Shown: in pieces, positions 4,622 through 42,232 of the stretch
Position numbering within the stretch: position 1 is the stretch's first letter
How the letters are laid out: every line of letters starts with the position of its first letter
Source: Halarchaeum rubridurum
GTDB taxonomy: Archaea > Halobacteriota > Halobacteria > Halobacteriales > Halobacteriaceae
NCBI RefSeq assembly: GCF_014647115.1
Contig: NZ_BMOO01000003.1
Span: 248,001 to 312,000 of the forward strand
Reading direction: 5' to 3'
Length of the DNA: 64,000 nucleotides
Program-made: the position numbers and the translations under genes
Notes under the pieces: model-generated
What the model was told of the DNA's origin: nothing
What the model saw: only the letters and a program-made list of their open reading frames with translations
The model's database searches: none

Positions 4622-4978
4622 TCACTCCTCGTCCTCTGGTTCCTCGACGACCTCGATGACTTCGAGGGGGACGTCGCGGAGCGCGCCACCGACCTCGCTC
4701 TTGGCGATCCGCGAGGCGTGCTCCTCGCCGTCCGCGTTGAAGACGGTCAGTTCGAGGACGAGGCCGACGAGCGCCGTCTCGGCCGCGAGGAACGCGGCGT
4801 CGAGCGGCTCCCCGCAGGCCGGACAGGACGTCACGCCCGCCTCCACCTCGACGTAGTCGAGGTCCTGGTCGTTCAGCCGTCGTCCCGCCTCGCTCACGGC
4901 GACACCGATGGCGTCGTCCGACTCTTCGACGTCACGAACCAGCCACGCGGCTTCCATCGCCACGACGTAGTTGCTCAT
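4622..4978 (-). CDS. UPF0212 (DUF555) family protein
   Basis: 118 residues from MSNYVVAMEAAW at 4978. It matches the archaeal UPF0212 family along its length: an N-terminal segment with AIGVAVSEAG, a central CPACGEP zinc-binding knuckle, and the conserved C-terminal RIAKSEVGGALRDVP followed by an acidic tail. The biochemical role of the family is not known. The start is fixed by the family's conserved N-terminus; the longer upstream frame is unlike it. It faces the lone tnpB, ending 11 bp past it. Confidence 0.88.
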   Translation of the reverse strand: MSNYVVAMEAAWLVRDVEESDDAIGVAVSEAGRRLNDQDLDYVEVEAGVTSCPACGEPLDAAFLAAETALVGLVLELTVFNADGEEHASRIAKSEVGGALRDVPLEVIEVVEEPEDEE

Positions 4979-29005: not shown

Positions 29006-30082
29006 ATGTTCCTCCCACTCCAGACGATTCCGGTCATCGACATGGGGGTCGAGCCGTTCCTCGTCCTGCTCCTCACCGCGCTCGCGGGCGGGGCGTTCGG
29101 CGCGGCGCTCGGCGCGCTCCCCTCGTTCGTCTTCACGGGCTTCGTCGTCCTGCTCGGTGAGGGCATCGACATCCTCCAGGGCCAGTTGAACGGCCTCGAC
29201 GCCATCAACGGAAGCCTCGCCGCCGGGGTCACCGGGACGGTCGGCTTCGGGATGGTCGTCGGCCCGCACGTCGCCTTCGCGGGCGGCGTCGCCGCCTCCG
29301 CGTACGTCGGCAAGAAGTACCCCGAGATGAACCCGAACGGGTGGGACTACCACCTCGGGAAGGACATCGCCTCCGCCTTCGGCACCAAGCCCGACATCCT
29401 CGCGGTCGGCGCGCTCTTCGGCGCGCTCGGCATGCTCGTCACGCAGGTCGCGGGCGGCCTCGGCGTCCCGACCGACAACATCGCGCTGTCCGTCTTCCTC
29501 ACCGCGATGGTCGCGCGCGTCGTCTTCGACTACCCGCTCGTCGGCACGGCCGCCGGCGAGGGCGTCTTCGACATGACGCCGTTCGAGCGCGGCGACCCGC
29601 GCGACCAGCCCGACGACGTCCCCGAGGGTAACGCCGGCCGCCTCGCCGTCGAGCCGTGGCTCGGCCACCAGTACAAGTGGCTGAACGTCGCGGTCATCGG
29701 CGTCGTCGGCGGGATACTCGGCGGCTACATCTGGCTGGAGACCGGGAGCGTCTTCCTCGGCTACGGCATCTCGGCGGCTAGCCTGCTGTTCCTCAACCTC
29801 GGCGTCGCCAAGATTCCCGTCACGCACCACCTCACGCTCATCGGCGTCGTCGGCGCGATGCTCGCCGCCCCGCTGTTCGGCGGCGAGCTCGTGCCGCTGC
29901 TCGCCGCCGGCGTCTTCGGCGCGCTCTCCGGCGTCGTCGGTGAGGCCGCCCAGCGGGTCTTCTACGCCCACTCCGGGACGCACGTCGACCCGCCCGCGAT
30001 GGCCATCGCGTCCATCATGTTCGTCGTCGGCGTCCTCTACCTCCTCGGTGTCCTCCCGAACGCCGGCTATCTCGGCCTCTGA
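29006..30082 (+). CDS. Multi-pass membrane protein next to glpK (putative glycerol facilitator)
   Basis: 358 residues with about eight to nine hydrophobic, glycine/alanine-rich helices (for example PFLVLLLTALAGGAFGAALG and ILAVGALFGALGMLV). It starts 3 bp after glpK, so the two are co-transcribed. In Haloferax volcanii the membrane protein encoded beside glpK was named GlpX and proposed as a glycerol facilitator; this gene has the same position and build. It is not related to bacterial GlpX fructose bisphosphatase, so no symbol is given. No aquaporin NPA motifs are visible; transport remains inference. Confidence 0.75.
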   Translation: MFLPLQTIPVIDMGVEPFLVLLLTALAGGAFGAALGALPSFVFTGFVVLLGEGIDILQGQLNGLDAINGSLAAGVTGTVGFGMVVGPHVAFAGGVAASAYVGKKYPEMNPNGWDYHLGKDIASAFGTKPDILAVGALFGALGMLVTQVAGGLGVPTDNIALSVFLTAMVARVVFDYPLVGTAAGEGVFDMTPFERGDPRDQPDDVPEGNAGRLAVEPWLGHQYKWLNVAVIGVVGGILGGYIWLETGSVFLGYGISAASLLFLNLGVAKIPVTHHLTLIGVVGAMLAAPLFGGELVPLLAAGVFGALSGVVGEAAQRVFYAHSGTHVDPPAMAIASIMFVVGVLYLLGVLPNAGYLGL

Positions 30083-30141: not shown

Positions 30142-31314
30142 ATGGACATCGACGCGCGGATACGACGACGCCGGCACCGGGCCGACTCCCAGCGGTTGGT
30201 CCGCGAGTACGGCGCGCTCTCCCCGGTCGCACACGTCGAGGACCCCGCGGGACGCGGACCGGTCGTCGAGCGCCTCCTCGACCACCTCGATCCGGTGTTC
30301 GACGGTCGCCTCCCGCGGAACGCCTACGTCCACGGGCCGTTCGGCGCCGGGAAGACCGCCGTCGTGACGGCGCTGTTCGCGCGTCTCGACGACCTCTCCG
30401 TGCAGAGCCAGTCCGCCATCCACACGAGCACGCGCGCGACGGCGTCCACGGAACCCCGGTTCGTCTACGTCGACCTCCGCGAGACGGCGAGCGAGTTCGC
30501 CTTCTACCGTCACGTGCTCGACGCCGTCGTCGACGAGACGGTCCCGGAGCACGGCGTCGGTACCGACGAAATCCGCACGCGCCTCCACGACGCGCTCGCG
30601 CGTTCCCCCGGCGGTGCCGTCGTCGCCGTCGACCACGTCGGGTCGCCCCGCGTCGACACGACCGCCGTCCGCGAGCGCCTCGACGGGCTCCCGGACAGCG
30701 CGCGCTGGCTCGCCATCGGCCGTCTCGACCCCGCGGCGTGCCCGTTCGACACGGCCGCCGCCGACGTCGTCCACATCGACGCCTACCGGCGTCGCGTGCT
30801 CATCGACGTGCTGATGACGCGCGCCAACGCCGGCCTCGCGCAGGGCGCGCTCGACCACGCCCTCGCCAGCCAAATCGCCGACTGGGCCGAGGGCAACGCC
30901 CACGACGCGCTCGCGGCGCTCTTCGCCGCGGCCGAGCGCGCCGCCGACGCGGACGCGACCCGGCTCCGCGAAGCCGACGTCGAGGCCGCATGCACCTCCG
31001 TGCCGCGCCCCGCGGTCTCGCTCGGCGAAGTGCTCGCGCTCTCCGCGAACAAACAGCGCGTCCTCCGCGCGCTCGTCGACCTCGACGGCGACGGTCGGTG
31101 CTCCGTCACGGAGACCGCGGAAGGGATCGCCGCCGCCGGCGACATCACCCTCTCGACGGGCACCATCGAGCGCTACCTCTACGAGCTCGCCGAGGCCGGC
31201 GTCCTCGAACGCGTCCGCGTGACCGACGGCGGCGGGAAGGGCCGTTCGCCGAGTCGCGTCGAACTCCGCTTTCCCCCCACCGTCTTCCGCAGGCTGTACG
31301 ACCTCCGGCGGTGA
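30142..31314 (+). CDS. Orc1/Cdc6-like AAA+ ATPase
   Basis: 390 residues. Walker A VHGPFGAGKTAVV near residue 65, Walker B-like AVVAVDHV (DH rather than DE), sensor-like IGRLDPAACPF, then a lid and a C-terminal winged helix (ANKQRVLRALVDL to STGTIERYLYELAEAGVLERV). This is the archaeal Orc1/Cdc6 layout of replication initiator proteins, but the sequence is divergent. Haloarchaea carry many such paralogues, several not tied to origins. The 60-bp upstream gap and 110-bp downstream gap show no obvious origin repeats. Confidence 0.78.
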   Translation: MDIDARIRRRRHRADSQRLVREYGALSPVAHVEDPAGRGPVVERLLDHLDPVFDGRLPRNAYVHGPFGAGKTAVVTALFARLDDLSVQSQSAIHTSTRATASTEPRFVYVDLRETASEFAFYRHVLDAVVDETVPEHGVGTDEIRTRLHDALARSPGGAVVAVDHVGSPRVDTTAVRERLDGLPDSARWLAIGRLDPAACPFDTAAADVVHIDAYRRRVLIDVLMTRANAGLAQGALDHALASQIADWAEGNAHDALAALFAAAERAADADATRLREADVEAACTSVPRPAVSLGEVLALSANKQRVLRALVDLDGDGRCSVTETAEGIAAAGDITLSTGTIERYLYELAEAGVLERVRVTDGGGKGRSPSRVELRFPPTVFRRLYDLRR

Positions 31315-32088: not shown

Positions 32089-33024
32089 TCAGTAGCCGAC
32101 GGTGCCGCTCGCGCGTTCGAGCGCGAGGATGACGAGCGCACCGCAGAGCGCGAGGACGACGAAGCGCCCGACGACGCCGACGTCGATGGCCGAGACGTCC
32201 GCGAACGCGAGGCGCAGCGGCGCGCGGAGCGCCCCGGTCATCAGCGCGACGAGGAAGGTGAGCGTCGCCGCCCGGTAGTGCTCGAAGGCCCACGCGACGA
32301 CGCGCGCGAAGGAGAGGAGGCCGACGAGCGCGCCCGCCATGAAGACGACGAGCGTCGTCGCGTGCGCGACGAGCGCGCCCGCATCGCCGGCGAGCGCGGC
32401 GGCCGTCGCGCCGTGGACCGCGCCGGTCATCCGGTCGTACTGCCGGAGCGTCAGGAGTATCAGAGAGCCCGAGATGCCGGGGAGCACCATCGCGCAGATG
32501 GCGAGCGCGCCGACGAAGAACGTCGTCACGGGGTTCGCGGGGAGCTGGCCGCCCGCGGTGCCGCTCGCGACGAACGCGAGCGCGAAGCCGGCGACGGCGA
32601 CGGTGACGTGTCGCGGCGTCCCGAGGCTGACGTCGCCCGCGAGGACGACCACGGAGGCGAGGACGAGTCCGAAGAAGAAGGCGTACGTCGCCACCGGCCG
32701 CGTGGTGAGGAAGTACTGCACGACGTTCGCCACGGTGACGACCGCCGAGAGGACGCCGACGCCGAGCACGCAGAGGAAGGGGACGTCCATCCGGACGAGT
32801 TCGTCGCGGACGGTCGCGCGCGCGTCGGCGTCGACCGGCGTGCGAGCGAGGGGGCCGAGGAGCGCGAGACACGCGCGTGGGTCGAGGCCGGCGATTGCGT
32901 CTATCAGCCGGGCGTAGATTCCGGTGATGAGCGCAATCGTCCCGCCCGAGACGCCGGGAACGGCGTCGGCGGCGCCCATCGCGGCACCGCGGAGGTAGAC
33001 GCCGAGCCACGCGCGCAGGCTCAT
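32089..33024 (-). CDS. DUF368 (PopT-type) polyprenyl-phosphate transporter
   Basis: 311 residues, about eight membrane helices. The two DUF368 hallmark repeats are clear: MGAADAVPGVSGGTIAL near residue 20 and AMVLPGISGSLILL in the second half. Bacterial DUF368 proteins (PopT) move undecaprenyl phosphate back across the cytoplasmic membrane. The gene starts only 8 bp after the aglB stop on the same strand, so the pair form an operon; in archaea the substrate would be dolichyl phosphate released after AglB transfers its glycan. Family assignment is strong; the archaeal substrate is inferred. Confidence 0.88.
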   Translation of the reverse strand: MSLRAWLGVYLRGAAMGAADAVPGVSGGTIALITGIYARLIDAIAGLDPRACLALLGPLARTPVDADARATVRDELVRMDVPFLCVLGVGVLSAVVTVANVVQYFLTTRPVATYAFFFGLVLASVVVLAGDVSLGTPRHVTVAVAGFALAFVASGTAGGQLPANPVTTFFVGALAICAMVLPGISGSLILLTLRQYDRMTGAVHGATAAALAGDAGALVAHATTLVVFMAGALVGLLSFARVVAWAFEHYRAATLTFLVALMTGALRAPLRLAFADVSAIDVGVVGRFVVLALCGALVILALERASGTVGY

Positions 33025-33032
33025 CGAGCGAT

Positions 33033-36000
33033 TCAGGCCGCCCGCGCGGTCGTCGTCGGAGTCGTCACGGACGCGGCCGTGTCGCTCGTGCTCCCGCTGC
33101 TTCCGTCGCTCGTACCACTCCCGCTCGTGCCGTCACTGCTACTGCTCGTGTCGCTCCCGCTCGACGACCCGCTCCCACCGCTGAGGAGCGACGCGAGGTC
33201 GAGTTCGCTCATCGTGACCTGCGTGGCCGTGTCGTTCACGCCGTTGACCTGGCCCTCGGTCACGTTCGCGGAGCCCGTCCAGTAGGTGCCGTTCGCGCTC
33301 GCGCTGAACGAGTAGCTCCCGGTCGAGCGGACGCTGACGTTCGTGTAGCCGTTCTCCGGGCCGTACTCGTCGTAGCCCGTCGTCGAGTACGGCAGCGTCA
33401 TCGTGAACTCACCGTTCGGCCCGGTCTGGGCGCGCTGCGTGTAGGTGAAGTTCTGACTCTTCCCCTGCTGGGTCGAGTACATCGTCACCGACGCGGTGAC
33501 GGTCGCGTTCGCGGGGCCGCTCCCCTGCACCGTCGCGCCCGGCACGCGCTCGTAGAGCTTCGCCCACGCGGGCATGTTCGAGAGCTGCTGGCTCGGTGCT
33601 TCCGTGCTCAGCCCGACGAGCCGGTAGTGTTCCAGCGCGGGGACGTACTCGCTCGGGTAGCGCCCGACGCCGCCGATCTGCGACGTCGAGTCGTTGGCGA
33701 CGTACGCCTCCGCCTCCGCTGTGGTGTTGAACTGCTGGACCGTCCCCTGGCTACTGGAGAGGTAGTAGGGCCCCTGACTGTTGTCCCAGTCGACGACGAT
33801 CGGCTCGGGCGACATCGCCGAGCCCTGGTAGCGGAACAGCCGCACCATCATCGTCTCGTAGTAGTTCTGGGTGTGGACGTACGCCTGGAGCTGATAGCCG
33901 CCGTTCTGCGTCTGGCGGAGCAGCGGGCGGTAGTAGTCGTACTGGCTGACGCCCTCGCGGTCGTCGTAGAAGACCGTCGGCGCGCTGAACTTCGAGTTCA
34001 CCGCGGCCATCTGCCAGTCGACGGCGACGTACCGCGTCTTCTCGTCCGCGTCGCCCTTCGAGTCGAGAATCTCGTTGGCGTGCGTCTCGTTCTGCGCGAG
34101 CAGGTAGTTCGCGGCGTACGTCGCGCCACCCTGGAACGGGTTGGCGTTCGGAATCCGCTCGCCGAGGACGGTGATCCAGTGACCATAGTCCCACCAGCTC
34201 ATCACGCCGTAACTGCCCTCGGGGTAGTCGTAGTCGTCCGTCTGGTGGTACGTGCCGTAGTAGTCGAGCTGGTCGGCATTACCGGCACCACCGTAGTTGC
34301 CCTCCGCGGGCGTGTTGTCCTCCATCCAGTCGAGCATCGGTGCCCACCCGGTCACGCCGCCGGGGCCGGCGGACGCGCCGGTCTGGACCGCCGTGGTCGT
34401 CTGGAAGTTGCCCCGGTCCGTGGTGAGCGTCACCGACGCCGCGAGCGGCGCGATCAGGATCAACAGTACCGCGACGACGGCGATGACGTGGATCGCCTCG
34501 ACGTCGTCGACCGAGTCGCGGACCGCGCCGATGTTCACGTAGTCGGAGCGCAGGAGCGTCGCGCCCGCGTACCCGCTGAGCACCGCGACCGGCACCGCGA
34601 GGTAGTAGTTGAAGCGCACCTGCGTGAACGCCGCTGCGATCAAGAACAGCGTCCAGACGACGACGAAGGCCTTCTCGGCGTCGTGGTCGCCGATGACGAC
34701 CGAGGCGAACAGCAGCCCGCCGACGACGACGATACCCGTCCACGTCGGGTTGAGCCCGAGGTTGCCCGCAATCGTCGGGAGCAGACCGGGCAGCAGGGAG
34801 ACGACCGCCGTGACGACGAACGCGACGACGGCGAACCACCGCTTGCGGCTGCTCGCCTCGACGAACGGCCGCCAGAGCAGCCACCCGAGGCCGGCGAGCA
34901 TCGCGAAGAACGCGAGGCCGTACTGGCTGAAGAACAGCGCGAAGCGCGACCCGCCGTAGTTCGAGAGGCTCCCGAGCCACGGCTGGGCCTCGCCGATGGT
35001 GCGCTGGGTGCCGGTCCCGCCGAATCCGATGAACCGCGTGAAGTTGCTGAAGAGCGAGCTGAAGACGTCCGGGAGGACGAGTGCGACGACACCGACACCG
35101 ACGACGGTGATCCCGAGGACCGCCAGCGGGTATCCACGACGGTCGACGTCGCGGGCCTCGAAGGTGCGAGAAAGCCACGCGAGGAAAACGCAAGCGGCCG
35201 CGACGCCGAACGCGCCGACGACCTGGAGTAGCGAGTACCTCGTGGCAGCGAACCCGACTGTGTCGAACGGCAGGAGGAGCAGGACACCCGTGACGCCCAT
35301 GCTCGTCGCGCCCGTGATCGAGAGGTGGTCGGGGCTCCCGCCGTTGAGGTGGACGCTCGCGAGCTTCAGGAGGAAGAAGACGCCGACGATGCCGACGAGG
35401 AGGACGCCCGGCGGCCACACCCACATGTAGAGGGCGGTGGCGACACCGGCCAGCGTACTCCACCCGAGGACGGGTTTGAGCGCGTCCCACTCGCGTGCGC
35501 GGACTTGTTCCCAGACCGGTCGGTCACGTTCCGCGACGTAGAAGGCCACGAGGAGGAGAGCGACCGCCGACGCCTGAAACAGCGGTTCGGCGACGTTGTG
35601 GTCCGCGGTGCCGACGAGGCTCCGCTGGAGGAAGAGGCCGGGAAGGAAGGCGAGGACGGCGACGGACAGCACGCCCGCGGCACGGCCAGCGAGCCGCTTA
35701 CCGAGGTAATACGTCGGGATGGCGACGAGCGCGCCGACGACGACCGGCGTGAAGAGGACGACCAAGCGAACGAGGTGCTCGCTCGGGCTCCCGGCACCGA
35801 GAATCAACGCGACCGTCGCCATCAACTGGTCGAACAGCGTGCCGAACTGGTCGACGCTGTTGCCGTACGGGTATTCGGTCCAGACGTCGAACGGCATCGT
35901 CGCCGGCCAATGCTGGACGACGTACATCGTGCTCCGGAGGTGGTACCACGGGTCGTTCCCGCTGAGTATCACCTGTCCGTCCCGTACGAAGTTCTGCCAG

Positions 36001-36134
36001 GACTGCCCGCGCACCCACAGCATGAACGCCATGAGGAGCGCGACCACGGGGACCGGATACCAGTCCGCCGCGATGTCGAGGACCGAACGCCCGCCGCTGG
36101 AGGGGCCGGCGGACCGGTCGGTATCGTCACTCAT
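33033..36134 (-). CDS. aglB: Dolichyl-(di)phosphooligosaccharide--protein glycotransferase AglB
   Basis: 1033 residues; STT3-family oligosaccharyltransferase that transfers a dolichol-linked glycan to Asn in Asn-X-Ser/Thr sequons on the outer face of the membrane. About 13 helices fill the first 570 residues, including the catalytic loop acidic motif SGNDPWYH at 58-65. The extracellular part holds the WWDYG motif at 647-651. The last 50 residues are an unusual Ser/Gly/Thr/Asp-rich tail. It heads an operon with the DUF368 transporter, diverging from a glycosyltransferase gene. TATA box 25-33 bp upstream. Confidence 0.96.
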   Translation of the reverse strand: MSDDTDRSAGPSSGGRSVLDIAADWYPVPVVALLMAFMLWVRGQSWQNFVRDGQVILSGNDPWYHLRSTMYVVQHWPATMPFDVWTEYPYGNSVDQFGTLFDQLMATVALILGAGSPSEHLVRLVVLFTPVVVGALVAIPTYYLGKRLAGRAAGVLSVAVLAFLPGLFLQRSLVGTADHNVAEPLFQASAVALLLVAFYVAERDRPVWEQVRAREWDALKPVLGWSTLAGVATALYMWVWPPGVLLVGIVGVFFLLKLASVHLNGGSPDHLSITGATSMGVTGVLLLLPFDTVGFAATRYSLLQVVGAFGVAAACVFLAWLSRTFEARDVDRRGYPLAVLGITVVGVGVVALVLPDVFSSLFSNFTRFIGFGGTGTQRTIGEAQPWLGSLSNYGGSRFALFFSQYGLAFFAMLAGLGWLLWRPFVEASSRKRWFAVVAFVVTAVVSLLPGLLPTIAGNLGLNPTWTGIVVVGGLLFASVVIGDHDAEKAFVVVWTLFLIAAAFTQVRFNYYLAVPVAVLSGYAGATLLRSDYVNIGAVRDSVDDVEAIHVIAVVAVLLILIAPLAASVTLTTDRGNFQTTTAVQTGASAGPGGVTGWAPMLDWMEDNTPAEGNYGGAGNADQLDYYGTYHQTDDYDYPEGSYGVMSWWDYGHWITVLGERIPNANPFQGGATYAANYLLAQNETHANEILDSKGDADEKTRYVAVDWQMAAVNSKFSAPTVFYDDREGVSQYDYYRPLLRQTQNGGYQLQAYVHTQNYYETMMVRLFRYQGSAMSPEPIVVDWDNSQGPYYLSSSQGTVQQFNTTAEAEAYVANDSTSQIGGVGRYPSEYVPALEHYRLVGLSTEAPSQQLSNMPAWAKLYERVPGATVQGSGPANATVTASVTMYSTQQGKSQNFTYTQRAQTGPNGEFTMTLPYSTTGYDEYGPENGYTNVSVRSTGSYSFSASANGTYWTGSANVTEGQVNGVNDTATQVTMSELDLASLLSGGSGSSSGSDTSSSSDGTSGSGTSDGSSGSTSDTAASVTTPTTTARAA

Positions 36135-36158
36135 TGTGTGCGTGGAGACGGAAAGTGA

Positions 36159-36166
36159 GGATAAGC
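36159..36166 (-). promoter_or_regulatory. TATA box of aglB
   Basis: Reverse-strand GCTTATCC lies 25-33 bp upstream of the aglB start codon in the 131-bp gap shared with the divergent glycosyltransferase. Confidence 0.6.
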
Positions 36167-36265
36167 CTTGTCATATACGGCAGTTTGAGGGCGTCGAGAG
36201 ATGCTTCGAGGGAGGGGGACTCCGGTAGAAACCCATTTGACGCTCCTCACGTTACGGGTAGGCGA

Positions 36266-37183
36266 ATGCGCGTCTCCGTCGTCCTCTGTACGTACACCCT
36301 CGACGAGTACGATCACTTCAAGGAGGCCGCGAACAGCGTGCTCGCACAGACACACGACGACGTCGAACTCGTCGTCGTCGTCGACGGCTACGAGGACGTC
36401 TACGACGTCGTCGTCGACGACTACGGTAATCATCCCGACGTGCAGGTCCACTGCAACGACGAGAACGAGGGGTTGCTCGTGAGCCGCAACCGGGGTGCCG
36501 AGTACGCCACTGGCGACGTCGTCGCGTTCATCGACGCCGACGCCGTCGCCGCGCCCGACTGGGTCGCCGAGCTCGTCGCGAGCTACGAGGAGTATGACGC
36601 GATTGCGGCCGGTGGAAAGATGACGCCGCGGTGGGTCGCCGGCAAACCCTCGTTCCTGCCCGCCGAGTTCTACTGGCTCGTCGGCGTTACCCACCGCGGC
36701 TTCGCCGACGGCGAGGGCGAAGTCCGCAACACCTTCGGTTCGAACATCTCCTTTCGCGCCGACGTCTTCGACGACCTCGGCGGCTTCAACCCCGAAATCG
36801 GCGGCCGGAAGGGCGAGAAGAACCTGCAGGGCGGCGAGACGGAACTCTGCGCGCGGATGCGAGAAGAATACGGCGAGGGCGTCTGGTACAACCCCGACGC
36901 CGTCGTCGAGCACAAGGTCTTCGACTACCGAACCGACCCATCGTGGCTCTGCGACCGCGCGTTCTGGCAGGGCTACTCGAAGCGCGCGATGGAGACGATT
37001 CTGCCCGATTCGGGTGGCGAGGAAATCGGGTTCCTGCGGCATCTGCTCTTCGGGGCGACACCCGCACACGCGCGTGACGTCGTTCGTCAACCGTCGTTCG
37101 CAAACCTCGCGCAACTCGTGATGCTCTACGTCTTCACGGTGTTCGTCGGTATGGGGTATCTGTACGGAGTGATCGACGGGTGA
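36266..37183 (+). CDS. Family 2 glycosyltransferase, AglG-like
   Basis: 305 residues from MRVSVVLCTYTLDEYD at 36266. GT-A fold with VVLCTYT, VVVVDGYEDVYDVV, RNRGAEYATGDVVAFIDADAVA (the DxD metal site) and a conserved GGETELCARMREE acceptor motif; a hydrophobic helix near the C-terminus suggests membrane association. In Haloferax, aglG lies next to aglB and adds a hexuronic acid to the dolichol-linked glycan; position and sequence agree, but sugar specificity cannot be read directly. The next glycosyltransferase overlaps its stop by 4 bases. Confidence 0.82.
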   Translation: MRVSVVLCTYTLDEYDHFKEAANSVLAQTHDDVELVVVVDGYEDVYDVVVDDYGNHPDVQVHCNDENEGLLVSRNRGAEYATGDVVAFIDADAVAAPDWVAELVASYEEYDAIAAGGKMTPRWVAGKPSFLPAEFYWLVGVTHRGFADGEGEVRNTFGSNISFRADVFDDLGGFNPEIGGRKGEKNLQGGETELCARMREEYGEGVWYNPDAVVEHKVFDYRTDPSWLCDRAFWQGYSKRAMETILPDSGGEEIGFLRHLLFGATPAHARDVVRQPSFANLAQLVMLYVFTVFVGMGYLYGVIDG

Positions 37184-38145
37184 GCGACCCCCAAATTTCC
37201 GTCGTCCTCCCGACGTACGACGCCGCATTCCACGTCAGAGGAGCTATCAGGAGCCTCCGCGAGCAGACGCTAACCGACTTTGAAGTCGTCGTCGTTGACG
37301 ACGGCTCAACAGACGGGACGCTCGATATTGTCCGGAGGGTGAGCGACGACCGCTTCCGAGTCGTTGAGCGCGACGACCCCACTGGAGGGCTACCGGGCGC
37401 GCTCAATCGTGGTGTTTGGGAGGCCCGAGCGCCATACGTTGCCCGTCAGGACGCTGACGACCAGTCGCATCCTCATCGGCTCGAAGAGCAAGTCGACTTC
37501 CTTGACGAGAACCCGGATGTCGCTCTCGTTGGAACGGGCGCGCGGATTCTCCGCACCGACGGGACGGTGAAAGACGTCCGTCGGACGAAGCCCCAACCGA
37601 CGTTTCCGGACCTCCTTGAGAAAAATCACTTCGTTCACGGCTCGGTTGCGTTCCGACGGGGCATCGTCCGCGAACTCGGTGGATACGACGAGCGCTTCGA
37701 GTTCTCCGAGGACTACGACCTCTGGCTCCGGCTCGCCCGCCGCCACGCGGTTCGGAACCTCAAGGCAGTCCGATACGATCTCCGCCTCCACGGCGAGAGC
37801 ATCTACGGCGCCGAGCTGGAAACGGTGAAACTCTACGCGGCGTTCGCGAGAGCGCGCGCGCTCAACAACACGTCCTTGACCGCCGAGGAGGTGCACGGCG
37901 ACCCGCGGTGCGTCTACCGCGAGTTCACCGTCCCGGAGCGTGCCCGCTTCCACCGCGAGATGGCGCAGGCCCTTCTCCGGTACGGCGAGCGGGCCGACGC
38001 TCGTTCCCACGCCCGACGTGGTCTCTGCGACAGCCCGACCGACCCCCGCCTCTGGGTGTTCCTCGCACTCTCCGTCGCGCCGTCGCGCGCGACCGACGCC
38101 GCGGTCTGGGCGGCTCGTCGGCTCTCGAACGTTCGCGCGCGATGA
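37180..38145 (+). CDS. Family 2 glycosyltransferase
   Basis: 321 residues, GTG start at 37180 overlapping the upstream stop. GT-A motifs ISVVLPTYDAAFHV, VVVVDDGSTDGTLDIV, the metal site APYVARQDADDQSHPHR, and the EDYDLWLRLARR acceptor motif are all present. It lacks membrane helices and has an Arg-rich helical C-terminus. Coupled translation with the AglG-like enzyme shows it builds the same glycan. AT content is a little higher than in the core region. Confidence 0.87.
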   Translation: MSDPQISVVLPTYDAAFHVRGAIRSLREQTLTDFEVVVVDDGSTDGTLDIVRRVSDDRFRVVERDDPTGGLPGALNRGVWEARAPYVARQDADDQSHPHRLEEQVDFLDENPDVALVGTGARILRTDGTVKDVRRTKPQPTFPDLLEKNHFVHGSVAFRRGIVRELGGYDERFEFSEDYDLWLRLARRHAVRNLKAVRYDLRLHGESIYGAELETVKLYAAFARARALNNTSLTAEEVHGDPRCVYREFTVPERARFHREMAQALLRYGERADARSHARRGLCDSPTDPRLWVFLALSVAPSRATDAAVWAARRLSNVRAR

Positions 38146-38220
38146 CTGCGTATCCGACGGTGAAACGGGACAGATAGTGAGTCATAATCGTGAAATACCT
38201 CCTCTGTCTACCGAATATCC

Positions 38221-39576
38221 ATGAGTAACGTTCTCCTCGTCACGGTCGACTCCTTGCGAGCGGACCACGTGGGGTGTTACGGCTACGACCGCGAGACGAC
38301 GCCGAACATCGACGCGCTCGCCGAGAGCGCAAGCCTCTACGAGAATGCCTTCGCACACGCCTGTTCGACGCGGCCGTCGTTCCCGGCGATCTTCACGTCC
38401 GCCTACCCGTTGATGTACGGGGGGTACGAACGACTGTCGGAGAACCGCACGCTCGTCTCGGAGGTGTTCGACGACGCTGGCTATCGGACGGGCGGTATCC
38501 ACTCGAACGCATATCTCAACCCTGAGTTCGGCTACGATCGCGGGTTCGACTACTTCTACGACTCGATGAGCGAGACCGGTCCGGTGGAGCGGCTACGCCA
38601 CTGGGTGAAAAGCCGCTTGGACGAGGACGGGTTCGTCTACAAGTCGCTCGCGTCAGCCTTCGACACCGCGGAGCGCACGGTCGGCGCGAACGTCGGGTCC
38701 GCCTACATCGACGCGGACGAATCCACCGACCGTGCCGTCGAGTTCCTGCGGGGTGGCGAGAGTCATGACGAGTTCCTGTGGGTCCACTATATGGACGTTC
38801 ACCACCCGTATCTCCCGCCAGAGGAACACCAACGCGCGTTCCGCGACGACCCGATCTCCGAGCGACGGGCGATACAGCTCCGCCGGAAGTTCATGGAGGA
38901 CCCGGAGGGCGTCACCGACGACGAGCTTGACGACATTATAGATCTCTACGACGCGTCGATCCGGTTCACCGACGAGCAGGTCGGTCGCCTGCTTGACGCC
39001 GCCGACGAACACTGGGACGACTACACGGTGGCGTTCACCGCCGACCACGGCGAGGAGTTCACCGATCACGGCGAGTTCAGTCACTTCGCAAAGTTCTATG
39101 ACGAGGTTATGCACGTCCCCCTCGTCGTCGACGACGGCGAACACAGCGGCCGTCGCGACGAAATGGTCGGACTCATCGATCTCGCCCCGACGCTCGTCGA
39201 CGCCGCCGAACTCGATCGGCCGGAGGGCTGGTACGGCTATCCGCTCTCCCGACTGCACCGGGGGGACTGGCCACGTGACTCCGTGCTCGGAGACTGGTCG
39301 CCCGACGGTCGAAGCCGTCGCGACATCCGATACGCCTACCGCGACCGGGAGTGGAAGTTCATCTCGCGTGACGCAGGCGAGGAGCTCTACCACCTCACAG
39401 AGGACCCCGGGGAGCACGAGAACCTCGTCGCCGAGGAGACGGCTGTCGCCGAGGAGCTCCGCGACGTGATCACCGCACACGAAGAGGAAATCGAACGCAC
39501 GCAGGAAGACCTCGGGGACGTCGAGATGGAGGAAGAGGTCAAAGAACGCCTACGAGACCTCGGATACGCGGAATGA
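38221..39576 (+). CDS. Sulfatase-fold (alkaline phosphatase superfamily) hydrolase or transferase
   Basis: 451 residues. Metal ligands VTVDSLRADHVGCYGY at the N-terminus and FTADHGEEFTDHG later match the sulfatase family. The nucleophile region reads ACSTRPSFPAIFTS: where formylglycine sulfatases have CxPSR, this has TRPSF, so the Cys needed for formylglycine is replaced by Thr. It may act as a phospho- or sulfo-transferase or hydrolase on the glycan. It ends VKERLRDLGYAE, a tail shared with the second sulfatase-like protein at 41285. It lies in the glycosylation island, 75 bp after the GT2 gene. Confidence 0.85.
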   Translation: MSNVLLVTVDSLRADHVGCYGYDRETTPNIDALAESASLYENAFAHACSTRPSFPAIFTSAYPLMYGGYERLSENRTLVSEVFDDAGYRTGGIHSNAYLNPEFGYDRGFDYFYDSMSETGPVERLRHWVKSRLDEDGFVYKSLASAFDTAERTVGANVGSAYIDADESTDRAVEFLRGGESHDEFLWVHYMDVHHPYLPPEEHQRAFRDDPISERRAIQLRRKFMEDPEGVTDDELDDIIDLYDASIRFTDEQVGRLLDAADEHWDDYTVAFTADHGEEFTDHGEFSHFAKFYDEVMHVPLVVDDGEHSGRRDEMVGLIDLAPTLVDAAELDRPEGWYGYPLSRLHRGDWPRDSVLGDWSPDGRSRRDIRYAYRDREWKFISRDAGEELYHLTEDPGEHENLVAEETAVAEELRDVITAHEEEIERTQEDLGDVEMEEEVKERLRDLGYAE

Positions 39577-39826
39577 CCCACCGAAACGGGAGGCGATTCG
39601 CCGCGCGTCGCTTCGCCGCCAACCGGTTCCGATGGGGGGAGCCCTATTGGTCAACGTCGGCGTGTGCAGGAGAATATACACTGTCCGTCGGTCTCACTGG
39701 GCTTACCTCGGTTCGATGGGTTGTCTCCGACACGTCCCGGGAGACGCGGTGCGGTACGGTTCGGTATGCGCCGACGACCAGCGAGGAGCGACCGCGACGG
39801 CGACTGTGGAATTACGATGATCGCGA
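39577..39826. other. Intergenic region before the flippase gene
   Basis: 250 bp without a convincing gene. An 85-codon open frame here (start 39573) overlaps the preceding stop and is Arg-rich without family features, so it is not called. A TATA-like GGAATTACG lies very close to the flippase start; no clear repeat is seen. Confidence 0.4.
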
Positions 39827-41230
39827 ATGAAGATTGGCCAGACGTCTGCCGTCTACTTCCTCTCGAACATCGGCACGTCCGTTCTGGGGTTCCTCGCGAT
39901 GCTCTACCTCACTCACAACCTCGCAGAGGACCTGCTGGCCTCCTACTTCCTCGTGGTCGCGATACTCATCTGGCTGAACGTCTTGTTCGGTCGAACGATA
40001 CAGCGCGCCGTCTCGAAACGCCTCTCCGAGACGGGAGACGACGGCTACGTCGGTGCGGGGTTACTGATGCAGGCCGTGGTTGGCGTCGTCATCGTCTTCG
40101 CCCTACTCGCGTTCCGCGGGTGGATGAACGGCTACTTCCGCGCTCCCGCAACGGTCCCCCTCGTCGGACTCGTCGCCGTCACGTTCGCATTCTCGTTCGT
40201 ACAGGAGGTCTTGAAAGGCCAGCACGACGTGCATATCGCCGCGCTTCTCCAGCCGCTTGATCGTGGGGTCCGAAGCATTCTCCAGATCACCGTCGCCGTT
40301 CTCGGGTTAGGGCTGAGCGCACTGCTGGTCGGATACGGGGTCGCGTCGTTCGTTGGTGTCGCTGTAGGTGTCACCTACCTCTCCGTCGGCGTATACCAGC
40401 CGACGCGCGAGCACGTCGCGTCGCTCTTGGAGTTCATCCGCTACTCGTGGCTCGGGATGCTCGGGAGCCGAGCCTTCGCTTCCATGGACACCGTGATCCT
40501 CGGCCTTCTGATCGCGACGAGCAGCTTCATCACGTACTACGAGATCGCGTGGAATATCGCGTCGGTGTTGGGAATATTCGGCGTTGCGCTCTCCGAGACG
40601 CTATTCCCCGAGATCAGTAAGCTTGGTGCCGAGGGAGAAAACGACCGAATACGGACGTTGTTGGAGGACGCCGTCGCCTACGCCGGTCTCTTCCTTCTCC
40701 CCGGGATTGTTGGCACGGCACTTATCGGGTCGCGCGTCCTTCGTCTTTACGGAGCGTCGTACGCGAAGGCGTCCACAGTTCTCCTTGTCCTTGTGTTCGC
40801 CCGCGTCGTCTACGCCTACGAGAGCCAGTTCCTCAGCGCACTTGACGCGCTGGACCGTCCTGATCTCGCGTTCCGCGTCAATGGCGTGTTCGTCGCCGCT
40901 AACCTCGGCGGGAATCTTGTGCTCGTCTACCGCTACGGCTGGGTCGGTGCGGCCGTCGCCACCGCCGGTTCCACGGCGCTCGCGCTCGTCATCTCTTACT
41001 ACTACCTTGACAGTGTCCTCGGGATCGGCATCCCATACGGCGAGCTCGGTCAGCAAGTGACCGCTGCCATCGCCATGGGTACCGTCGTTTACGCTATCGA
41101 GACCGTCATTGACCGCGGAAGCGTCGGTACAGTCGCCCTCGTCGTCATCGGGGCTGCCGTCTACTTCGCGGTGCTCGTCGGGATCTCCAAGCACTTCCGC
41201 ACCACTGTCGCCCGAAACCTCCCCGTTTGA
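39827..41230 (+). CDS. Polysaccharide/lipid-linked oligosaccharide flippase (Wzx/AglR-like)
   Basis: 467 residues with about 12-14 hydrophobic helices and the MOP-superfamily layout: an N-terminal IGQTSAVYFLSNIGTSVLGFLAMLYL and a second half repeating the pattern (YYEIAWNIASVLGIFGVALSETLFPEISKL). Such proteins flip lipid-linked sugars across the membrane; AglR has been proposed for this in Haloferax. Encoded between the two sulfatase-like genes in the glycosylation island. Confidence 0.85.
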   Translation: MKIGQTSAVYFLSNIGTSVLGFLAMLYLTHNLAEDLLASYFLVVAILIWLNVLFGRTIQRAVSKRLSETGDDGYVGAGLLMQAVVGVVIVFALLAFRGWMNGYFRAPATVPLVGLVAVTFAFSFVQEVLKGQHDVHIAALLQPLDRGVRSILQITVAVLGLGLSALLVGYGVASFVGVAVGVTYLSVGVYQPTREHVASLLEFIRYSWLGMLGSRAFASMDTVILGLLIATSSFITYYEIAWNIASVLGIFGVALSETLFPEISKLGAEGENDRIRTLLEDAVAYAGLFLLPGIVGTALIGSRVLRLYGASYAKASTVLLVLVFARVVYAYESQFLSALDALDRPDLAFRVNGVFVAANLGGNLVLVYRYGWVGAAVATAGSTALALVISYYYLDSVLGIGIPYGELGQQVTAAIAMGTVVYAIETVIDRGSVGTVALVVIGAAVYFAVLVGISKHFRTTVARNLPV

Positions 41231-41250
41231 GCGGGACGCAAGCGGCTATC

Positions 41251-41260
41251 AACTTTTATA
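41251..41260 (+). promoter_or_regulatory. TATA box of the second sulfatase-like gene
   Basis: AACTTTTATA lies 25-34 bp upstream of the start codon at 41285. Confidence 0.65.
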
Positions 41261-41284
41261 CTGGCCACGACCCACTCGTCCGGT

Positions 41285-42232
41285 ATGTCGATCGGATGGA
41301 TCCGCTATGCCGCTGAGGAGATATCCACTCACTACGACGACCCAACGTGGTGGCGAAAGCGTATCTCGCAGCGCGTCGTCTCGCCCGTCCACTCGATTTA
41401 CCCGGGCACGACTGGTATCGACGTGATGGACGCTGATTGGGACACGCTCGTCGTCCTCGACGCGTGCCGCGCAGACCTCTTCGAGGAGATCGCGGACCGC
41501 GACGCTGTCGACGACTATCGTAGGGTTACGTCGAGGGCAAGCATGACCGCCGAGTGGACCGAGAAGAACTTCGCTGGCGGATCGTTTGGAGACACCATCT
41601 ACGTTACTGGAAACCCGTACACGTCCCGGATAGCCGGCGACGCCTTTTACGAGGTGATGGACGTTTGGGCCGACAACTTCGATGAGGACGCGAGGACGAT
41701 CCGTCCCGAACCCATCGTCGCCGCTGCCGAGCGGGCCCACAGCGAACATCCGGACAAGCGACTGATCGTTCACTTCATGCAGCCACACTACCCATTCCTT
41801 GGCCATCCCGACCTCACCTACAACTCTTGGAACCCCGGGCAGATACGCGGCAAGAGCGGTTCGGGTGAGAACTCACACGAGGTCCACAGCGTCTGGCAGG
41901 CGCTTGAACTCGGTCTCGTGGACCGTGAGCGCGTCCGTGAAGCCTACGCCGATAACCTTCGCCGCGTTCTCGGTCCCGCGTTCGATCTCGTCGCGTCGTT
42001 GGACGGGCGGTCCGTGATCACGGCCGACCACGGCAACCTACTCGGCGAGCGCGCGTGGCCCGTCCCTATCCGCCTCTACGGTCACCCGAGAGGGGTACGT
42101 GCTCCTGAACTTGTCGAGGTCCCGTGGGCAGTCGTGGACGGGACGCGACGCGACGTGATCGACGAGGGAACCCATCAAACTGAGGTGAGTGCGGACGTGA
42201 GTGAACGGTTGAAAGATCTCGGATACGCCTGA
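41285..42232 (+). CDS. Sulfatase/phosphatase-fold protein of the haloarchaeal LDACRAD type
   Basis: 315 residues. Core motifs LVVLDACRADLFEEI (in place of the usual VDSLRAD), LIVHFMQPHYPFLGH and SVITADHGNLLGER identify the alkaline-phosphatase fold. It is shorter than true sulfatases and has no CxPSR; the nucleophile region SRASMTAEWTEKNF has Ser/Thr instead. It ends SERLKDLGYA, like the protein at 38221. Likely modifies the surface glycan or its lipid carrier; activity unknown. Own TATA box, monocistronic. Confidence 0.78.
   Translation: MSIGWIRYAAEEISTHYDDPTWWRKRISQRVVSPVHSIYPGTTGIDVMDADWDTLVVLDACRADLFEEIADRDAVDDYRRVTSRASMTAEWTEKNFAGGSFGDTIYVTGNPYTSRIAGDAFYEVMDVWADNFDEDARTIRPEPIVAAAERAHSEHPDKRLIVHFMQPHYPFLGHPDLTYNSWNPGQIRGKSGSGENSHEVHSVWQALELGLVDRERVREAYADNLRRVLGPAFDLVASLDGRSVITADHGNLLGERAWPVPIRLYGHPRGVRAPELVEVPWAVVDGTRRDVIDEGTHQTEVSADVSERLKDLGYA

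Follow-up and report, generated by a model that had tools for sequence, protein, structure and literature searches.

How does the empty lipid carrier of N-glycosylation return to the inner face of the haloarchaeal membrane once the oligosaccharyltransferase AglB has used its glycan? The question is raised by a gene pair in a 64,000-nucleotide stretch of the Halarchaeum rubridurum genome (contig NZ_BMOO01000003.1, positions 248,001 to 312,000; hereafter the window), in which a gene of the DUF368 family directly follows aglB:

33033..36134, minus strand: aglB, archaeal oligosaccharyltransferase (STT3 family, archaeosortase-A-associated subfamily), 1033 amino acids (TIGR04154, PF02516, PF22627, PF18079)
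33025..33032, minus strand: 8-bp spacer from the aglB TGA to the DUF368 ATG, read directly from the sequence
32089..33024, minus strand: DUF368 / VCA0040-like predicted polyprenyl-phosphate transporter, 311 amino acids (PF04018)

By analogy with bacterial members of the family, we consider the best explanation of this arrangement to be that the DUF368 protein returns the carrier lipid discharged by AglB, and we regard this as probable. The aglB product scored 913.8 bits against TIGR04154 (cut-off 450), 87.3 against PF02516, 84.1 against PF22627 and 52.5 against PF18079. Its translation contains WWDYG, in agreement with WWDxG, which we take to be the motif expected of AglB, and ends in a C-terminal tail rich in Ser, Thr and Gly. 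The DUF368 protein matched PF04018 over residues 16-269 with 219 bits (cut-off 26), and the whole genome of the window holds a single copy of each gene. A preliminary description of this locus had placed the DUF368 start 8 bp past the aglB stop, and the bases between TGA and ATG (33025-33032) confirm this. From the 8-bp spacing and the conserved adjacency described below we infer an operon-like pair.

Profile searches of 391 haloarchaeal genomes detected DUF368 in 386 and aglB in 387, with 384 of the latter over the cut-off. Linkage was surveyed in about one genome per genus by fetching 7 kb either side of DUF368 and seeking aglB by tblastn. This sample was non-random, comprising only genera among the DUF368 matches listed with coordinates; the class has 86 genera, and g44, g50, g53, g59, g64, g67, g75, g80 and g81 are among the unsampled. 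In 53 of the 77 sampled genera, representing seven of eight families, DUF368 lay no more than 7 kb from aglB, downstream and in the same orientation (f1 6/6, f2 13/20, f3 12/27, f4 15/16, f6 2/2, f7 2/2, f8 3/3, f9 0/1). Because the linkage is spread over families, chance adjacency was rejected. The expectation of the preliminary description that the pair would be conserved was thus borne out, and in most of the sampled haloarchaeal genera DUF368 is not remote from aglB: copies that are only unlinked were confined to 24/77 genera.

Narrower counts were also made. Among 15 named haloarchaeal loci (from 80 matches listed) 12 were linked, for example those of Halorubrum coriense, Halolamina salifodinae, Halorhabdus amylolytica and Natrinema ejinorense, and no aglB was found within 8 kb of DUF368 in Halonotius roseus, Natronorubrum halalkaliphilum and Halobellus rufus. 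An earlier, biased count of genomes with both genes among the best 150 matches listed (n=57) placed DUF368 on the aglB strand at most 2.6 kb downstream in 52 genomes, and in the other 5 the two genes lay on different contigs. The joint absence of aglB and DUF368 from three genomes (G187, G206 and G306) was not used as evidence, since these are assemblies of 160-180 contigs, where neighbours drop out together.

At the level of single loci (88 fetched plus the window), aglB was found just upstream on the same strand in 56 and not in the other 33. The aglB-DUF368 gap measured by script was -4 to +275 bp in 49 of the 56 linked loci and ≤10 bp or overlapping in 30 of these 49, single values being approximate as start codons were picked by alignment. 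Two further linked loci, affected by a script artefact, were adjacent when read by eye. The remaining five had a gap of 1.5-2.5 kb with at least one gene between, and two of these inserts were glycan-like when named by eye: an AglM-like UDP-glucose dehydrogenase (L126) and an AglF-like nucleotidyltransferase (L131).

Such adjacency could be inherited gene order without functional meaning, with DUF368 handling another lipid or performing another job. Regional synteny does exist: tblastn found a divergent family 2 glycosyltransferase (GT2) gene in 29 of the 56 linked loci, glpA in 26, an Orc-like gene in 18, and CutA and HAD hydrolase genes in 11 each. The genera with unlinked copies only would also fit this explanation. 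However, the pair outlives these neighbours and is very tightly spaced in most measured loci, and the bacterial family acts on polyprenyl phosphates, with a Haloferax member functioning in Vibrio cholerae (PMC9876793). We consider inherited order alone quite improbable. DUF368 is the most persistent partner of aglB in the 56-locus set, a set chosen for DUF368, for which the fairer figure is the 53/77 given above; the divergent GT2 gene is the second most constant neighbour.

The history of the linkage was examined with a rooted tree of 64 sequences, made of 56 rows of an earlier tree and 8 of 65 bacterial sequences, and rooted on the bacteria. It superseded a quick, midpoint-rooted tree of 101 rows that included a very long row (L161) and had put non-haloarchaeal rows within the linked group. 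Haloarchaeal DUF368 formed a single clade (100/100), with its base held by linked copies spanning seven families. Groups B1 (found in family f3) and B2 (mostly in f2), to which most of the unlinked copies belong, together made up one derived clade (100/98) that grouped with the linked f4 clade (100/99). Since linked copies are basal and the unlinked groups derived, linkage looks like the older state, placed deep in Halobacteria. Judged from sequence, the unlinked type looks like the product of a single origin followed by spread or retention in other families.

Unlinked copies of linked-type lineages were found in five genomes (G029, G054, G132, G225 and G393), and in five others (G005, G181, G344, G388 and G044) a linked copy coexisted with an unlinked one. 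Genome G116 shows a displacement of the linked DUF368 by a second copy. A decayed DUF368 remnant (L167, about 4634-4867, on the aglB strand) lies there ∼240 bases past the aglB stop; its N-terminal part is gone, and its match to the linked copy of the genus mate G120 is limited to residues 183-258 (51% identity over 78 amino acids, E 1e-14). The same genome additionally holds a B1-type DUF368 elsewhere. When 26 aglB loci of genomes with an unlinked DUF368 were read by eye, no shared replacement transporter was seen after aglB, the downstream genes differing. In several of them aglB was followed, again by eye, by look-alikes of the Orc-like gene or of a membrane-protein gene found at 29006 in the window, as would be expected if DUF368 had been lost from the site. 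Among 17 B1 loci, seven had a GT2 gene on the opposite strand ∼1 kb past DUF368 (for example L108:7906-9288 and L097:8899-9675), and seven a methyltransferase gene.

A function for the linked protein is suggested by its bacterial relatives, which bring undecaprenyl phosphate (C55-P) back to the inner face; without them, C55-P at the surface increases, which places their action in the inward direction (PMC9876793, PMC12826051). Complementation of a V. cholerae DUF368 mutant by the Haloferax volcanii DUF368 protein was at least partial, and the same authors describe DUF368 as enriched in Halobacteria and mention dolichol phosphate as a possible substrate (PMC9876793). HVO_RS12060 of H. volcanii is the named haloarchaeal relative in the DUF368 / VCA0040-like family. 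In contrast to the bacterial PopT-type genes, the DUF368 gene of the window sits by an oligosaccharyltransferase gene, and the expected carrier is dolichyl phosphate. The preliminary description, whose interpretation is partly supported overall, proposed that dolichyl phosphate is returned after AglB has acted, which would fit both the bacterial role and the Haloferax complementation (PMC9876793).

In the proposed cycle, AglB would remove the glycan from dolichyl phosphate at the outer face, where bare dolichyl phosphate would stay. The DUF368 protein, which would share its mRNA with AglB, would then carry it to the inner face for recharging. Unlike in the bacterial undecaprenyl-pyrophosphate route, no pyrophosphatase would act between the two steps: because the haloarchaeal carrier is mostly a monophosphate, such an enzyme would be unneeded and DUF368 could take the lipid directly. 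With a single exception, all archaeal N-glycans so far described have dolichol monophosphate as their source (PMC4476749), and Halobacterium has a second glycan on a pyrophosphate carrier (PMC3871713). We infer co-transcription, substrate, direction and coupling to AglB. AglB and the linked DUF368 might even constitute a dedicated coupled unit, perhaps a complex, in which spent dolichyl monophosphate is handed straight to the transporter. This extension is possible but doubtful; if true, it would give archaeal N-glycosylation its first known return step, one that bypasses the bacterial pyrophosphatase.

The reverse direction was also considered, with DUF368 flipping charged dolichyl-phosphate sugar outward to AglB. 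The available text of a 2013 review of H. volcanii (PMC3871713) names no flippase for the AglB-transferred glycan, AglR and Agl15 being candidates for other dolichyl-phosphate sugars. The inward action of the bacterial members (PMC9876793, PMC12826051) argues for the opposite, and we consider an outward role highly improbable. Like DUF368, AglR and Agl15 would serve membrane steps of haloarchaeal N-glycosylation, but their proposed direction is opposite to the return proposed here (PMC3871713).

The DUF368 protein of the window contains the half-motifs PGVSGGT (residues 23-29) and LPGISG (181-186), of which P23-G27, T29, L181-G183 and S185-G186 are invariant across 24 aligned archaeal members. 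Both half-motifs, together with D20, Y37 and Y196, were common to 65 bacterial sequences; because that set was gathered using the two half-motifs, only the non-motif positions count as independent likeness. In contrast, the haloarchaeal R39, D80, Q195 and R251 are unlike the bacterial majority or unconserved there. The AlphaFold model (mean pLDDT, the per-residue confidence score, 91.6) is almost all helix and confidently predicts a polytopic membrane protein with the two related half-motifs common to bacteria. A sequence search of the PDB returned no solved relative, and fold comparisons with solved structures gave no firm match, the best Foldseek E being 0.34 and the best VIA-align Z 9.2, in a range common for helical models.

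Several findings weigh against a return step performed by DUF368 on behalf of AglB. The preliminary description had called the protein PopT-type; the PF04018 match (219 bits) carries this to the family, but the NCBIfam models NF052564 and NF052563 (PopT) matched with only 194.9 and 88.8 bits, under the equivalog cut-off of 400. Since these polyprenyl-phosphate transporter cut-offs were missed, we use 'PopT-type' as a family-level label for the Pfam family and make no equivalog call. The 24/77 genera with unlinked copies only belong here too, as do the B1 loci, which are surrounded by housekeeping genes (thermosome, MutS-like, methyltransferase), and the fairly complete genome G021, in which aglB is present and DUF368 had no match. 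Outside Halobacteria, DUF368 followed a uraA-like (uracil permease) and then a upp-like gene in four f30 genomes that were read (L195-L198; genes named by eye, uraA lying partly outside one stretch). Finally, VTT/DedA proteins, a possible second recycler, were present in each of the 15 genomes tested, whether or not these had DUF368 (eight gave no DUF368 match, seven of those being fragmented or incomplete assemblies).

The genome of the window has two VTT/DedA (PF09335) matches, both on other contigs than the pair. The DedA/VTT (UptA-type) C55-P flippases have the same proposed bacterial job as DUF368 (PMC12826051) but belong to a separate Pfam family, PF09335. DUF368 need not be the sole recycler of the carrier, and because VTT/DedA proteins co-occur with it a single DUF368 deletion may show little. 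The bacterial need for DUF368 likewise varies with conditions (PMC9876793). In line with a direct return of the monophosphate, a search confined to BacA/UppP gave no match in 29 of 59 haloarchaeal genomes, the window's included; with BacA/UppP absent from these genomes, DUF368 would act independently of it.

A broader role would make DUF368 a general recycler for all dolichyl-phosphate pathways (AglB, the AglS-type mannose step, exopolysaccharides and alternative glycans), lying near aglB as its main consumer but without dedicated coupling. The near-universal presence of DUF368, linked or not (386/391 genomes), the replacement of linked copies by unlinked ones, and, in H. volcanii, a second glycan transferred without AglB and a mannose with a dolichyl phosphate of its own (PMC3871713) all favour such a role. 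It accounts less well for the age of the linkage and for a constancy that no other neighbour reaches, and we regard it as rather unlikely.

Two observations concern further oligosaccharyltransferases. Among five genomes with both genes listed (G004, G016, G021, G041 and G058), two had a BacA/UppP gene and, no more than 0.6 kb away, a second AglB-like gene of shorter length (G021 contig C3 5555-8735; G004 contig C3 228297-231595). This arrangement may mark a second oligosaccharyltransferase acting on a dolichyl pyrophosphate carrier. A second AglB-like protein of ∼800 amino acids, under the TIGR04154 cut-off, was present in many f2 and f3 genomes and is a candidate for the second oligosaccharyltransferase of H. 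volcanii (PMC3871713).

In the phylum, DUF368 was found in 89 of 294 genomes: 52 haloarchaeal rows and 37 of about 241 non-haloarchaeal genomes. An STT3 gene was present in all 37, and the 12 non-haloarchaeal DUF368 loci that were read had no aglB match within 7 kb. A candidate glycosylation cluster in the four f30 genomes, where STT3 and DUF368 share a strand at a distance of 12.6-14.4 kb, was dropped because upp adjoins DUF368 and a thermosome gene and others intervene. The aglB-DUF368 linkage is a haloarchaeal trait as far as tested. Because most non-haloarchaeal genomes of the phylum are without DUF368, it is no general requirement of archaeal N-glycosylation, a further point against the proposed step in its widest form. 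The preliminary description had offered it as a missing step of archaeal N-glycosylation; such a step would not apply to archaea in general.

A possible role of the family in handling dolichol phosphate has already been suggested in print (PMC9876793); what is new is the conserved operon-like aglB-DUF368 linkage, which puts a known family in a new pathway position. In the open-access literature, which was the extent of our search, we found no report of aglB with DUF368, nor of DUF368 with N-glycosylation. The archaeal N-glycosylation texts consulted give no account of the return of empty dolichyl phosphate, and the 2013 H. volcanii review does not use the term 'recycl' (PMC3871713). The conserved pair strengthens the interpretation of the preliminary description, names a candidate for carrier return, ties it to AglB and renders the step testable. 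If true, the return by DUF368 would carry the PopT family beyond bacterial cell-wall polymers and into protein glycosylation.

On its two sides the pair is flanked in the window by the following genes:

36134..37183, plus strand: family 2 glycosyltransferase gene, divergent from aglB (PF00535, 85.7 bits)
30142..31314, plus strand: Orc1/Cdc6-like AAA ATPase gene, facing the pair (PF13191, 56.8 bits; TIGR02928 below cut-off)

The glycosyltransferase open reading frame opens at a TTG at 36134, and the searches used the stretch from 36224. It begins a run of surface-glycan genes beside aglB (36134-42232, plus strand) consisting of two family 2 glycosyltransferases, a sulfatase-family protein and a MurJ/Wzx-like flippase. 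The membrane-protein gene beyond the Orc-like gene (29006-30082, plus strand; also L064:9888-11039) is retained in the vicinity of aglB-DUF368 at 9 of the 56 linked loci. Its window copy had no NCBIfam match and its L064 copy no Pfam match; look-alikes of this gene directly follow aglB in L170, L172 and L175.

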